Shown in pieces: positions 3,346 to 23,686 of a stretch of 49,480 nt of DNA. Source of the stretch: Prolixibacteraceae bacterium (GTDB lineage Bacteria; Bacteroidota; Bacteroidia; Bacteroidales; Prolixibacteraceae). Where the stretch lies: contig WTWZ01000031.1 of NCBI GenBank assembly GCA_009773765.1, positions 1 through 49,480 on the forward strand, read 5' to 3'. The translations under genes and the position numbers were made by a program. Each line of letters starts with the position of its first letter. The first letter of the stretch is position 1. The notes below the pieces were generated by a model, which saw nothing but the letters and a program-made list of their open reading frames with translations, was not told the origin of the DNA and ran no database searches.

Positions 3346-3711
3346 TCATTTTTTACTGTTGTTCTTTTTTGAGGTTTCTATACTTTTTACAAAAATTGAA
3401 ATCAATTCGTTATTTTCACCGAAACACCAGTCAAGGAGAGTCTTATCATCAGTAAGATTTCCGTATTTAATGATTTTGATATTTATAAAGGTTTCCCGCA
3501 ATTCTTTAAGGCAAACACCCATTTTATGAACAAAATCTTTTGAAGATTCAGCGCTTTGAGCTTCTCCATAATTTAAAGCGGGTGAAGTTCCAGACCTTAC
3601 AAGTTGCCCACTCAGATGATTTCCTGCCTTAGTATCAGGCAAATGGTTCGAAAGTTCAATTATTCTTACAGCAAACCAAATCAGCCTTTCCTCTAATTCA
3701 AATTTATTCAT
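3346..3711 (-). CDS. four-helix-bundle protein (S23/intervening-sequence protein family)
   Basis: A helical protein of 121 residues with the family pattern FAVRIIELSNHLP...HLSGQLVRSGTSPALNYGEAQ...DFVHKMGVCLKELRET. This matches the S23-type four-helix-bundle proteins, first seen as ORFs within 23S rRNA intervening sequences and common as stray genes in Bacteroidota. They are related to the bAvd accessory proteins of diversity-generating retroelements. Their molecular role is mostly unknown. It interrupts the argG-argC junction, is flanked by inverted AT-rich repeats and is probably a passenger rather than an arginine gene. No reverse transcriptase is nearby. Confidence 0.85.
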   Translation of the reverse strand: MNKFELEERLIWFAVRIIELSNHLPDTKAGNHLSGQLVRSGTSPALNYGEAQSAESSKDFVHKMGVCLKELRETFINIKIIKYGNLTDDKTLLDWCFGENNELISIFVKSIETSKKNNSKK

Positions 3712-3739
3712 TTCTCAATCGTTTTAATTTTTTTTCTAA

Positions 3740-3778
3740 AATCGCTAATCTTCAATCGTTAATCCTAAATCGTTAATC
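3740..3778. repeat. AATCGTTAATC repeats, right side of inserted gene
   Basis: AATCGTTAATC occurs at 3754-3764 and 3768-3778, with a variant AATCGCTAATC at 3740-3750. This is the exact reverse complement of the GATTAACGATT motif left of the inserted gene, so the four-helix-bundle gene is bracketed by inverted repeat blocks. The last copy overlaps the argG stop codon. Confidence 0.85.
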
Positions 3779-4967
3779 ACTTTTTGTTTACCTTATGGTA
3801 TATTTTCAATGAGTTTGATAGAATTTTTGTAAACCCTTTCACATCGTCGGCTGTCCATGCTTTTACGGTTTCGCCGTATTCGCCAAAACCTGATTTCATC
3901 AGGTCGTGTTCCGATTCAATTCCCTGTAATTCAAAACGGTACGGCAACAATTTTACAAAAACTTTTCCGGTAACATTTTCCTGTGTGGCTTCGAGGAAAG
4001 TTTCGATGTTTCGCATCACCGGTTCCTGATACATCGCTTCGTGCAAAAACATTCCATACCAGGTCGAGAGTTGATCCTTCCAGTAGGTTTGCCATTTTGT
4101 AAGGGTATGTTTTTCGAGTAAGTGGTGTGCTTTTATTGTCAGTAAAGGTGCGGCGGCTTCAAAACCAACCCTTCCTTTAATTCCGATAATCGTGTCGCCC
4201 ACGTGAATGTCGCGGCCAATGGCATATTTCGACGCTATTTCGTCTAATGCCTGAATGGTTTTCGGACCGTTTTCATACGATTTTCCGTTGATGGTTTTTA
4301 ACTCGCCTTTCACAAAACCCAGCTCAACAAACCGTTCTTCTGTTGCTTCCAACTGGCTCGGATAAGCTTCTGATGGCAATCCCTTATCCGATGTTAAAGT
4401 TTCTTTTCCGCCAACGCTAGTCCCCCACAACCCCTGGTTAATAGAGTATCCCATTTTTGTATAATCTTCAACAACACCATGCTTTTTCAGGTAATCGATC
4501 TCCTGCTGGCGGCTTAACATCAGGTCGCGGATTGGTGTGATTATTTCAATTTCGGGGGCAACCACCTGAAAGGCAAGATCGAACCTAATCTGGTCGTTTC
4601 CGGCGCCGGTGCTGCCATGTGCAATGTAACCTGCCCCTATTTCCTTGGCATAGTTAATGGTTGCCATTGCCTGAAATACCCTTTCAGAACTCACTGAAAT
4701 GGGATATGTATTGTTGCGCAAAACATTTCCGAAAACCATGTAGCGGATACATTTTTCATAATATTCGTTTGTTACGTCGATAGTAACATGCTTTTTCGCT
4801 CCCAGCCGGTAAGCCCGATCTTCAATAACTTTCAGTTCATTTTCAGAAAAACCCCCGGTATTTGCAATGGCTGTGTAAACCTCAAATCCTTTTTCCTCTT
4901 TCAAATATTTAACGCAAAACGAGGTATCCAACCCACCGCTGAAAGCCAAAACCAGTTTTTTATTCAT
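3777..4967 (-). CDS. argG: argininosuccinate synthase
   Basis: A protein of 396 residues, normal for ArgG, joining citrulline and aspartate with ATP. The N-terminal PP-loop SGGLDTS is at residues 10-16. Further family motifs are IAHGSTGAGNDQIRFDLAF, ITPIRDLMLSRQQEIDYL and YSINQGLWGTSVGG. The start is the ATG in MNKKLVLAFSGG. A 149-bp gap separates it from the GNAT gene upstream and holds a possible internal promoter and a 12-bp palindrome. Confidence 0.95.
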   Translation of the reverse strand: MNKKLVLAFSGGLDTSFCVKYLKEEKGFEVYTAIANTGGFSENELKVIEDRAYRLGAKKHVTIDVTNEYYEKCIRYMVFGNVLRNNTYPISVSSERVFQAMATINYAKEIGAGYIAHGSTGAGNDQIRFDLAFQVVAPEIEIITPIRDLMLSRQQEIDYLKKHGVVEDYTKMGYSINQGLWGTSVGGKETLTSDKGLPSEAYPSQLEATEERFVELGFVKGELKTINGKSYENGPKTIQALDEIASKYAIGRDIHVGDTIIGIKGRVGFEAAAPLLTIKAHHLLEKHTLTKWQTYWKDQLSTWYGMFLHEAMYQEPVMRNIETFLEATQENVTGKVFVKLLPYRFELQGIESEHDLMKSGFGEYGETVKAWTADDVKGFTKILSNSLKIYHKVNKK

Positions 4968-21184: not shown

Positions 21185-21228
21185 TTTTAACCACTCTTCG
21201 AAATTGAACGGAATTCGGGTGGTTAAAA
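21185..21228. terminator. terminator-like hairpin at the end of cysK
   Basis: TTTTAACCAC (21185-21194) pairs exactly with GTGGTTAAAA (21219-21228), and part of the interior also pairs. The right arm overlaps the cysK stop codon. A long T-run is missing on the minus strand, so termination may be weak or the hairpin may act in mRNA stability. Confidence 0.5.
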
Positions 21229-22134
21229 CAAGCCATCTACAGACAGATAACGTTCCCCATGATCGTATGAGAATGTCAGAATTCGCGAACCTGATGGTAT
21301 TTCCTTGATTTTTTTTGCCACTGCTGCCAGAGAAGCGCCTGAAGAAATCCCAACAAACAAACCTTCGAGCTTAGCTGCCTTTTGGGTATATTCAAATGCT
21401 TCGTCCCTGCCAATCTGAATAATCCCGTCAAGAACTTCAGTATGCAGGTTTTTGGGGATAAAACCTGCGCCAATTCCCTGAATCGGGTGCGGGCCGGGAG
21501 TTCCGCCACTAATCACGGGGCTTGCTTCGGGTTCGACAGCAAATACTTTAATATTTGGGAATTTTTGTTTTAAGACTTCCCCAACACCCGAAATATGGCC
21601 ACCCGTTCCGACCCCGGTAATCAGGTAATCAAAACCTTCAGGAAAGTCGGCTAAAATTTCCTGCGCGGTAAAATCCCTGTGAACTGCGATGTTTGCCGGA
21701 TTGTCGAATTGTAACGGTATCCAGGCATTTTCAATTTCTGCTGCCAATTCTTCAGCCCTGGCAATAGCGCCTTTCATACCTTTTTCCCTGGGTGTGAGCA
21801 CAAGTTCGGCCCCCAATGCCGACAGCACTTTACGTCGTTCAATACTCATCGACTCGGGCATGGTTAAAATCAACCTGTATCCTTTAACCGCAGCAACAAG
21901 CGCAAGGCCAATTCCAGTGTTTCCCGATGTAGGTTCTATAATCACCGAACCGGCATTTATGATTCCCCTTTTCTCGGCATCTTCCACCATCGAAAGTGCG
22001 ATCCTGTCCTTAATACTTCCCCCTGGATTTGTTTTTTCAACTTTCATCCAGACTTCATAATCAGCAGGATAAAGGCGGTTAATCCGAACATGTGGCGTGT
22101 TGCCAATAGTTTCCAAGATGTTTTGAGCTTTCAT
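21223..22134 (-). CDS. cysK: cysteine synthase (O-acetylserine sulfhydrylase)
   Basis: A PLP enzyme of 303 residues making cysteine from O-acetylserine and sulfide. The Schiff-base lysine is K42 in [20 protein letters not shown] (69-77) binds substrate, and VGTGGHISG holds the PLP phosphate. The length and the motifs fit CysK or CysM; the long C-terminal extension of cystathionine beta-synthase is absent. Upstream lie a cysteine-rich leader ORF, a terminator hairpin and a competing pairing, which together suggest cysteine-responsive attenuation. Confidence 0.93.
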
Positions 22135-22165
22135 AATTTAAAATTAAAATCGGTTAAAAAATTAA

Positions 22166-22195
22166 AAAGGCCTTCCTGATTTTAGGAAAGCCTTT
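22166..22195 (-). terminator. attenuator-type terminator hairpin in the cysK leader
   Basis: On the minus strand AAAGGCTTTCCT (22195-22184) pairs with AGGAAGGCCTTT (22177-22166), a 12-bp stem with one G-U pair and a six-base loop. A U-rich tract TTTTTAATTTTTT follows, 30 bases before the cysK ATG. The left arm CTTTCCT can instead pair with AGGAAAG (22247-22241) inside the leader ORF, so two exclusive structures are possible. Confidence 0.8.
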
Positions 22196-22221
22196 CATAT
22201 ATTATAATTAAATTGTTTCTT

Positions 22222-22299
22222 TTAATTAACATTTAAAACACTTTCCTGCCGTCCGCAGCGGCAGCAACATATTAAGTTGTATTTACTTGTTTTTTTCAT
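22222..22299 (-). CDS. cysteine-rich leader peptide upstream of cysK (25 residues)
   Basis: An ORF of 25 codons starting MKKTSKYNL and continuing ICCCRCGRQE. Four of five consecutive codons are cysteine (TGT TGC TGC CGC TGC). The stop is 27 bases before the terminator hairpin that precedes cysK. The cysteine codons overlap CTGCCG (22264-22259), which pairs with CGGCAG (22251-22246). That second segment overlaps AGGAAAG, the strand able to open the terminator. This is the trp/his-type attenuator layout with cysteine as the sensed amino acid. The ATG lies 8 bases after a TAnnTTTG box, so the message is almost leaderless. Confidence 0.75.
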   Translation of the reverse strand: MKKTSKYNLICCCRCGRQESVLNVN

Positions 22300-22306
22300 T
22301 GTTTTG

Positions 22307-22314
22307 CAAACTTA
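22307..22314 (-). promoter_or_regulatory. -7 box for the cysK leader transcript
   Basis: TAAGTTTG on the minus strand fits TAnnTTTG. Transcription would start a few bases before the leader ATG at 22299. No good -33 TTTG is present at the expected distance. Confidence 0.55.
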
Positions 22315-22345
22315 ACAAAAAATCAGAGAAAAAGTTTTACAGGTA

Positions 22346-23686
22346 TTAATTTTTATACCTCAGCCATTTAAACAACTCTTTCAGGTTTATTTTTTTGCCG
22401 TACATTAAAAGCCCAATCCGGTAAATTTTTGCAGCGGCGGCAATTGCCCCAATGGTAGTCAGAACCAAAAGGAACATCGAAAGTAAAAGTTCCCAGGTTG
22501 GAATTCCGTAAGGAATCCTTGCCATCATTGCCACGGGCGAAGTTAGCGGAATAATGGAAAACCAGAATGCAACCGGCCCTTCCGGATTCCGGGCAATTGG
22601 AAACAGTACCATAATGGATAAAATCAGGGGTATTGTAACCGGAAAAACCATTTGCTGCGAATCCTCTTCGTTATCGACAGCCGCGCCAACCGCGCCAAGC
22701 AGCGAACTGTAAAGAAGATATCCTACGAGAAAATAAAAAATAAAAGTAAAAAGGATAAGTGGAATATTCAGGTTGCCAATCATTTCCATAACTTCCAAAA
22801 CCTTATTTGGTTCAGCAACCTGCGCCATCGCGGGGTTCATCTGCTGCTGGCTTTCCATGATACTCTGCCCCATTTGTTGTGCCGATTCGGGAGTAAAAAA
22901 TCCCTGGGCAACCATTAATACTACCATTCCCAAAACTATCCAGATAGCTACCTGCGTTAATCCAACCAAAGCAGTTCCGATAATTTTGCCGGCCATTAAT
23001 TCGTAAGGTTTTACTGATGATATAATTACCTCGATAATACGGCTTTTTTTCTCTTCCATTACACTCCGCATTACCGTTGCCCCATACATGAAAACAAAAA
23101 AGTAAATGATAAAACCCATGGCATAACTTGCAACAAATGCAATGGCCGATGAGCTTTTCTGTGTTTCCCCGGTAACTGAAACTTTTAAGGTGCTTAACCT
23201 GATGCTGGTTTTAGTGTTCGACAACCTTTCTTCCAAATCAGGTATTCCGGTTTCGTTGATTATTTTTTGCCGTTTGTCATTCTCAATATACCGGCTCAGT
23301 TTGCGCTCTATTTGTTCATTTAATTCAAAAGGTACCTGTTTTTCAGAAATCAACTGCGCTATGTTATTGGTATAAATATCATTCGGAATATAAAGTAACG
23401 CATAGAATCCGCTCCCTTTCATGTTGCTTTTCAGTTGTTCATATTCTTCTTTTGGAATGAATTTATATTTTGTCATGCCTTCTTCACCAAGCTCGTTGAG
23501 AAACAAAGAAGATTCGTCGAAAACTGCAATTGTACGTTCTTTTTTATCGTTATTAATTGATAAAAATATAACCAGGGCAAATACTCCGGCAAACAAAAAC
23601 GGGACAAGCAAAGTCAGAATAATAAACGATTTCTTTTTAACCCTTTTCAGGTATTCATTCTTTAATATTAGTACTGTTTTGTTCAT
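22346..23686 (-). CDS. ABC-2 type transporter permease (NatB-like)
   Basis: A protein of 446 residues. One membrane helix lies near the N-terminus (FIILTLLVPFLFAGVFALVI), then an extracytoplasmic domain of about 140 residues, then five or six helices from about residue 180 (SSAIAFVASYAMGFIIYFFVFMYGATVMRSVMEEK, FFVFM, VALWIVLGMV-like and later segments). This is the ABC-2/NatB layout, with the typical MEEKKSRIIEVIISSVKP motif after the first helix of the core. It pairs with the ATPase gene 44 bases upstream. The exported substrate may be sodium or a drug-like molecule and is not known. Confidence 0.85.
   Translation of the reverse strand: MNKTVLILKNEYLKRVKKKSFIILTLLVPFLFAGVFALVIFLSINNDKKERTIAVFDESSLFLNELGEEGMTKYKFIPKEEYEQLKSNMKGSGFYALLYIPNDIYTNNIAQLISEKQVPFELNEQIERKLSRYIENDKRQKIINETGIPDLEERLSNTKTSIRLSTLKVSVTGETQKSSSAIAFVASYAMGFIIYFFVFMYGATVMRSVMEEKKSRIIEVIISSVKPYELMAGKIIGTALVGLTQVAIWIVLGMVVLMVAQGFFTPESAQQMGQSIMESQQQMNPAMAQVAEPNKVLEVMEMIGNLNIPLILFTFIFYFLVGYLLYSSLLGAVGAAVDNEEDSQQMVFPVTIPLILSIMVLFPIARNPEGPVAFWFSIIPLTSPVAMMARIPYGIPTWELLLSMFLLVLTTIGAIAAAAKIYRIGLLMYGKKINLKELFKWLRYKN

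Follow-up and report, generated by a model that had tools for sequence, protein, structure and literature searches.

A putative cysteine-sensing transcription attenuator upstream of cysK in Prolixibacteraceae

In the member of the Prolixibacteraceae studied here, the cysteine synthase gene cysK is very probably controlled by a ribosome-mediated transcription attenuator of the trp/his type that senses cysteinyl-tRNA. The candidate element lies in the window, the whole 49,480-nucleotide stretch of DNA that was analysed, and such a regulator had been proposed in a preliminary description of this DNA. As read from the sequences of relatives, the short ORF, its Cys codons, the terminator (3:4) and antiterminator (2:3) pairings with changes on both sides, and the spacing of these parts all recur. 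The features are as follows.

22307 to 22314, minus strand: TAAGTTTG, an element resembling a promoter -7 box by sequence, ending 7 nt before the leader ATG.
22222 to 22299, minus strand: leader peptide ORF of 25 codons, reading MKKTSKYNLICCCRCGRQESVLNVN* and conserved in the family.
22255 to 22269, minus strand: regulatory codons TGT TGC TGC CGC TGC (Cys Cys Cys Arg Cys), from the sequence.
22259 to 22264, minus strand: CTGCCG, segment 1 of the 1:2 hairpin of the preliminary description, from the sequence.
22246 to 22251, minus strand: CGGCAG, 3ʹ arm of that hairpin, from the sequence.
22234 to 22247, minus strand: segment 2, the antiterminator strand AGGAAAGTGTTTTA, with its core AGGAAAG at 22247-22241, within the leader ORF; predicted from its duplex.
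22184 to 22196, minus strand: segment 3, GAAAGGCTTTCCT, 5ʹ arm of the terminator and common to the antiterminator; predicted from sequence and duplex.
22165 to 22177, minus strand: segment 4, 3ʹ arm of the intrinsic terminator, with a T-rich tract onward to 22156; a covarying stem in 49 relatives.
21223 to 22134, minus strand: cysK, cysteine synthase A, the presumed regulated gene; TIGR01139 above cut-off.

On the minus strand, the leader ORF is flanked by a 446-codon gene (22346-23686), which from its sequence looks like an ABC-transporter permease, and by cysK, whose ATG is at 22134. The naming of cysK as the downstream gene in the preliminary description holds (TIGR01139 at 402 bits, cut-off 351), and the 25-codon ORF at 22299-22222 with four Cys codons is present as given. 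The same is true of CTGCCG (22264-22259), CGGCAG (22251-22246), AGGAAAG (22247-22241) and CTTTCCT (22190-22184). The terminator has its T-rich tract and stops 30 nt short of the cysK ATG, as described; however, its stem (22196-22165, -17.7 to -18.2 kcal/mol) is 13 bp long rather than 12, and it begins 25 nt past the leader ORF instead of 27. No NCBIfam family matched the 25-aa peptide.

The scheme that we infer, from transcription and translation of the leader to ribosome stalling and the direction of the response, would work as follows. Transcription would begin just 5ʹ of the short Cys-rich ORF. With ample cysteine, the ribosome would pass the Cys codons and segment 2 and reach the stop codon; segment 3 would then pair with segment 4, and RNA polymerase would terminate before cysK. 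With charged tRNA-Cys scarce, the ribosome would stall on the Cys codons, leaving segment 2 free to pair with segment 3, and the polymerase would read through into cysK. The preliminary description had the same trp/his logic, in which the Cys codons are the sensor and cysK is the target, and it is supported as far as sequence goes.

The Cys leader is nearly constant within the genus, where 37 genomes were searched and a close CysK was found in 31: all but one of these 31 cysK upstream regions carry it (L032 does not). Among the six genus genomes without a CysK match, G013 and G023 carry a Cys leader followed by the start of a cysK that the contig end truncates. Across the family, 140 genomes were searched and 125 matched at E<=1e-90. 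The 92 close-orthologue upstream regions were reduced to 91 by removal of one whose last 250 nt were identical; six further close matches lie outside the set, namely G043 and one G102 match, which both fall at contig ends, and those of four g8 genomes. The cysK start of G102, on another contig, has a leader (L248), and a covariance model of the cysK leaders, R1, also matches just before cysK in G073, G075 and G076, outside the set of 91. Within that set, 75 upstream regions have a Cys-rich leader and a terminator (72 found by script, L144 and L146, which failed the CCTT filter only, and L014). One (L168) has a seven-codon version, MCCWFLC, with Cys codons right from the start and a terminator; three keep the terminator alone (L153, L157 and L160, in which the upstream gene reaches nearly into the terminator and the leader is absent); and 12 have neither.

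Chance is a poor source of such ORFs. A strict rule (an ORF that starts with ATG, spans 10-45 codons and has three or more Cys within 5 residues) is satisfied in 67/91 family cysK upstream regions; dinucleotide shuffles satisfy it in 17 of 4550 cases (0.4%) and the antisense strands in 1 of 91. A Fisher test for joint occurrence of leader and terminator (p 2e-9) is given no weight, because it ignores relatedness, the CCTT filter mis-scored L144 and L146 and the L014 terminator had been mis-picked. Across the 72 leaders, both Cys codons are used (TGT 177, TGC 84). The start of the peptide is conserved and the remainder outside the Cys run is variable; the run itself is reduced to CC or CxC in several leaders, and L010, L027 and L147, all from the genus, have just two adjacent Cys.

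Structural conservation was assessed in an alignment of 49 leaders, hand-picked from 72 of compact layout with near-identical ones omitted. RNAalifold returned one conserved helix from this alignment, the terminator, in whose stem 95.7% of cells are paired. The antiterminator 2:3 pairing has 89.9% of cells paired, compared with 86.1 in shuffles (0/500 as high) and at most 71.1% in slid versions. Changes on both sides number 55 in the terminator against 15.1 in shuffles and 22 in the antiterminator against 7.8 (0/500 shuffles as high), counts that are inflated by the relatedness of the leaders. The covariation score of the antiterminator, 0.266 against 0.194, was likewise reached by 0/500 shuffles, and relatedness inflates this score and the paired fraction too; its number of pairs with a both-side change (3) and of further pair types (9) did not exceed those of shuffles, 358 and 337 of 500 of which were as high. 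The both-side changes expected of the 2:3 and 3:4 pairings in the preliminary description are thus seen among relatives.

The antiterminator is also evident from duplex energies. In the window's leader, the 2:3 duplex reaches -15.0 kcal/mol versus -6.2 in shuffles (p 0.005). In 44 non-redundant leaders, the duplex of the ORF after the Cys codons with the terminator arm has a mean of -12.6 versus -7.5 kcal/mol in dinucleotide shuffles, with p<0.05 in 32 and p of 0.05 or more in 12. Own arms pair better than arms swapped within the cysK class (-12.6 versus -11.0; own better in 29/44, Wilcoxon p 0.0016), a modest difference. The G-rich antiterminator strand lies inside the leader ORF, 3ʹ of the Cys codons, and it occurs in reading frames 1, 2 and 0 in 21, 13 and 8 leaders, respectively (2 of 44 unscored). 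Its presence in all three frames argues that it is kept as an RNA pairing and not as peptide. The same evidence bears on the proposal that the ORF is a gene for a functional small Cys-rich protein, for example, a metal or redox peptide, that is a chance neighbour of cysK and is followed by an ordinary terminator. While a short Cys-rich ORF with a conserved start would suit such a protein, and runs of Cys might bind metal, the peptide varies outside a Cys run that can itself shrink to two residues, and the latter half of the ORF, which fits the terminator arm, passes through three frames as the RNA motif stays constant. A functional small protein is therefore a most unlikely explanation.

The terminator itself weighs against a second alternative, in which the Cys ORF acts through translation coupling or Rho and the hairpin is incidental. 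Such a mode has been proposed for actinobacterial cys leaders, which, in the cited passages, lack obvious terminators and for which Rho is one suggestion (PMC1262725). In the family studied here, however, a strong covarying intrinsic terminator with a T-tract stands alongside the leader in 75/91 upstream regions, a median of 37 nt before the cysK ATG (72 leaders), and it is matched by an antiterminator. Coupling or Rho is thus very unlikely as the mode of action, and attenuation at the intrinsic terminator remains the preferred reading.

For attenuation, transcription must include the leader ORF, and a candidate promoter is present at the appropriate position. An element TAnn(n)TTG, a pattern relaxed post hoc after the TATATTGC form was noticed in the genus, occurs no more than 40 nt from the leader ATG in 69/72 leaders versus 19% of shuffles; the stricter TAnnHTTG is found within 45 nt in 43/72 versus 9%. 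The flavobacterial promoter consensus is given as TAnnTTTG (PMC9723704). From the position of the motif, the transcript may start just upstream of the leader ORF, which would make it close to leaderless in much of the genus. In 63/72 leaders the terminator ends no more than 54 nt from the cysK ATG, which leaves little space for a second promoter; in the other 9, the distance is 67-144 nt, enough space for another promoter.

The spacing of the segments fits a stalled ribosome. The last Cys codon and segment 2 are 7-23 nt apart (median 14; 7 in the window's leader), segment 2 and the end of the stop codon 4-32 nt (median 13), and the stop and the terminator 19-39 nt (median 26). With the usual ribosome footprint, a stall at the first Cys codons frees segment 2, and a ribosome close to the stop sits on segment 2 or has only just passed over it. 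Such coverage is less clear in genus g2, whose leaders have about 21 nt between segment 2 and the end of the stop codon. When folding is modelled simply, with a ribosome placed on the Cys codons, segment 3 is predicted to have over half its length paired with segment 2 in 42/44 leaders. The state with the ribosome at the stop gives 0 antiterminator by construction, since the modelled RNA starts 9 nt past the stop, and thus carries no evidential weight. With no ribosome and arm 4 not yet made, 2:3 is favoured in 26/44 leaders, including that of the window, and an untranslated leader might therefore not terminate cleanly.

The comparison supports the 1:2 hairpin weakly. Its arms are present as the preliminary description had them, and folds at this position in the 44 leaders average -6.8 versus -5.0 kcal/mol in shuffles (Wilcoxon p 1e-5). 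However, the hairpin is not clearly conserved: it is singly significant (p<0.05) in 13/44 leaders, the window's own p is 0.24, and own segments 2 are not distinguished from swapped ones (p 0.11, own better in 24/44). Because 2:3 is predicted to form in the window's leader before arm 4 when no ribosome is present, 1:2 would not be expected to act as a strong anti-antiterminator, and the outcome of the folding model does not require it. Conservation among relatives' cysK upstream regions, the check proposed in the preliminary description, thus extends to the ORF, the Cys codons and the 2:3 and 3:4 pairings but not clearly to 1:2.

Leaders of the same kind precede other genes of sulfur metabolism. 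Model R1 was searched in the 140 family genomes and in 395 phylum-wide genomes. The best 20 listed family matches away from known CysK orthologues (G013 and G023 left out) all have Cys-rich peptides, followed by an OsmC-like gene in nine, a second cysK-type gene directly in two, a siroheme-synthase-type gene in six, a cysJ-type gene in two and the G102 cysK in one; in L295, the OsmC-like gene is followed by a second cysK. Representatives of these genes were identified by model and the others were recognised from sequence. The antiterminator arms differ by leader class, being of GGAAAGG, GTGGAGGG and CAGAAGGG types. In three classes of 44, 10 and 8 leaders, related within each class, the duplex with the own terminator averages -12.6, -14.6 and -13.2, respectively, versus -7.9 to -10.6 across classes.

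The window's own genome has a second Cys leader, MKVNSSEIKMNCMACMMCMCCNRFIAEE (model match on contig C101, 64548-64669), which lies upstream of a 112-codon ORF and then siroheme synthase, cysJ and cysI. Its duplex is -4.4 with a shortened arm and -13.9 with the arm plus loop (p 0.025). That the sulfite-reductase operon has a leader built in the same way suggests that the cysK attenuator belongs to a Cys regulon. In the assembly, the cysJ of this genome (L292 near 3500-4600) is interrupted by masked or unknown bases.

Among the best 29 phylum loci, Cys or Cys/Met leaders stand before sulfur or related genes in 8, leaders for other amino acids account for 14, and 7 are unexplained. The 8 include one before a carbonic anhydrase, for which a connection with cysteine is not obvious, and one before a peroxiredoxin and then a cysM-like gene; L237, one of the 7, has CCC but no near gene. 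Of the 14, six precede thrA, with Thr/Ile codons (L215, L219, L220, L225, L228 and L230), six precede ilvD, with Ile/Val codons (L224, L231, L238-L240 and L242), one precedes ilvE, and one, the Asn-rich L221, precedes asnA; asnA alone was checked by model (Pfam), thrA and ilvD being recognised from sequence. The window's own genome adds VVVVV before ilvD (L264), HHGHHG before hisG (L267) and a Leu/Ile-rich leader before leuA (L280), genes likewise recognised from sequence; each of these leaders comes with a terminator and closes its ORF with an antiterminator segment that matches it. Over 23 such leaders (19 phylum and 4 own-genome, three near-duplicate ilvD leaders omitted), the duplex of leader end and terminator arm averages -13.4 versus -7.7 in shuffles, with p<0.05 in 17/23; the six that fail are L217, L223, L224, L230, L231 and L240. 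Separately, L218, L233 and L235 have leaders of the form MKFNICNMFK.. / MRFNLCNMSK.. and a terminator; no gene of at least 90 codons was found within 900 nt of them.

These codons also bear on a third alternative. Terminator/antiterminator pairs are common in riboswitches, and the element could be a metabolite- or protein-binding switch in which the Cys codons are bystanders. However, the codons of sibling leaders fit their downstream genes (Thr/Ile with thrA, Ile/Val with ilvD, His with hisG, Asn with asnA), and RNAalifold found the terminator as sole conserved helix. Moreover, Rfam gave 0 matches above the gathering threshold in the whole window and none at the leaders in 20 relatives' loci, where the 2 matches in total, SAM and SAM-II, are both in L218 and away from its leader. 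A riboswitch-like element is thus an extremely improbable explanation, and attenuation by the leader ribosome is again preferred.

Taken across the phylum, it is moderately likely that Bacteroidota have a Cys regulon controlled by attenuation, with Cys or Cys/Met leaders before cysK, OsmC/second-cysK, siroheme synthase-cysJI, cysH, rhodanese-sulfite reductase, metY-type, metN-type and other genes. These would share one design, in which the antiterminator strand lies at the end of the leader ORF just past the stalled ribosome, and the same design would serve Thr, Ile/Val, Leu, His and Asn genes. If so, it would be the phylum's general means of sensing amino acids.

The range of the cysK leader is narrower. 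Among cysK loci of named genomes, 9/80 have a Cys leader and a terminator: seven from Prolixibacteraceae or unclassified Bacteroidales, each already present in the family set, and two from Ignavibacteria. By similarity to its nearest named relatives, the window probably comes from Prolixibacteraceae as well. This distribution indicates that the cysK leader is mainly a feature of Prolixibacteraceae; Cys leaders as such are, by their model matches, more widely distributed in the phylum. The two Ignavibacteria loci (L057 and L087) have CCC leaders with a terminator before cysK, and a myxobacterium, Pyxidicoccus (L049), has a poly-Cys ORF before cysK without a terminator by the rule used. The other 70/80 loci have no such leader by this rule, two of them (L067 and L109) having less than 200 nt of upstream DNA. 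In genus g3, all eight cysK upstream regions examined are without leader and terminator. Five of them (L152, L166, L167, L171 and L200) contain a palindrome, ATACC(N8)GGTAT, that starts 80-136 nt before cysK and is possibly a repressor site replacing the attenuator.

Leader-peptide attenuation has been indicated before in this phylum. The F. psychrophilum transcriptome gave strong clues of it upstream of amino-acid operons, and the paper's main text names cysteine once, for a protease (PMC9723704). Neither a Bacteroidota Cys leader nor the way in which Bacteroidota sense cysteine was found reported in the open-access full-text literature, a scope that excludes most subscription papers. A broad attenuation survey (Lopatovskaya 2010) is said to exist that may include some of these leaders. 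Bacteroid-trp RNA is, from its name, linked to trp genes. Catalogued as RF01692, it is a Bacteroidetes element too (PMC2864571), and it has no Rfam match to the window or the leaders of the 20 relatives.

In the cysK leader, biosynthetic genes would be under cysteine attenuation by a complete terminator/antiterminator pair, outside the groups in which it was described earlier. Being conserved and made of defined segments, it is directly testable by exchanging a few codons or bases. The matches also suggest that many leader peptides have yet to be annotated in this phylum, whose members matter in guts, soils and seas, and the RNA model offers a way of finding them.

Several known systems resemble this element in part. 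The uORFC-8-2 motif upstream of cysS in Rhodobacterales has a uORF with tandem Cys codons and then an intrinsic terminator, and ribosome-mediated attenuation has been proposed for it (PMC8632094). As described in that source, it is like the cysK leader in both parts, but it controls cysteinyl-tRNA synthetase in alphaproteobacteria, its first stem includes the Cys codons, and these number two, usually at positions 14 and 15. The leader described here stands before cysK and not cysS, and its nearest named relatives are Bacteroidota rather than Rhodobacterales, which places it outside that motif. Actinobacterial cys operons have Cys leaders and, in the cited passages, no conserved terminator hairpin upstream (PMC1262725). 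They share with the cysK leader a short ORF that has Cys codons in runs and precedes genes of cysteine biosynthesis, as mycobacterial leaders do, but the conserved covarying terminator and antiterminator set the cysK leader apart from the actinobacterial type as the source presents it. Mycobacteria reportedly have polycysteine sORFs that are leaderless (Canestrari 2020), and the cysK leader, by its promoter motif, would be nearly so. The preliminary description knew of no Bacteroidota Cys attenuator, which agrees with the open-access literature; its placing of Cys leaders in Actinobacteria was too narrow, given those before Rhodobacterales cysS. With Cys attenuation known in both groups, the mechanism belongs to a known kind, and the combination of signal, target and phylum appears to be new as far as checked. 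Enterobacterial trp/his attenuators consist of regulatory codons, a shared segment 3, a 3:4 terminator and a 2:3 antiterminator. All four are found in the cysK leader, with codons for cysteine, the amino acid made by the downstream gene product, in the leader ORF, an intrinsic terminator and an antiterminator that shares the terminator's 5ʹ arm. Unlike the trp/his attenuators, the cysK leader would take cysteine as its signal, has segment 2 inside the leader ORF and does not clearly conserve the 1:2 hairpin.
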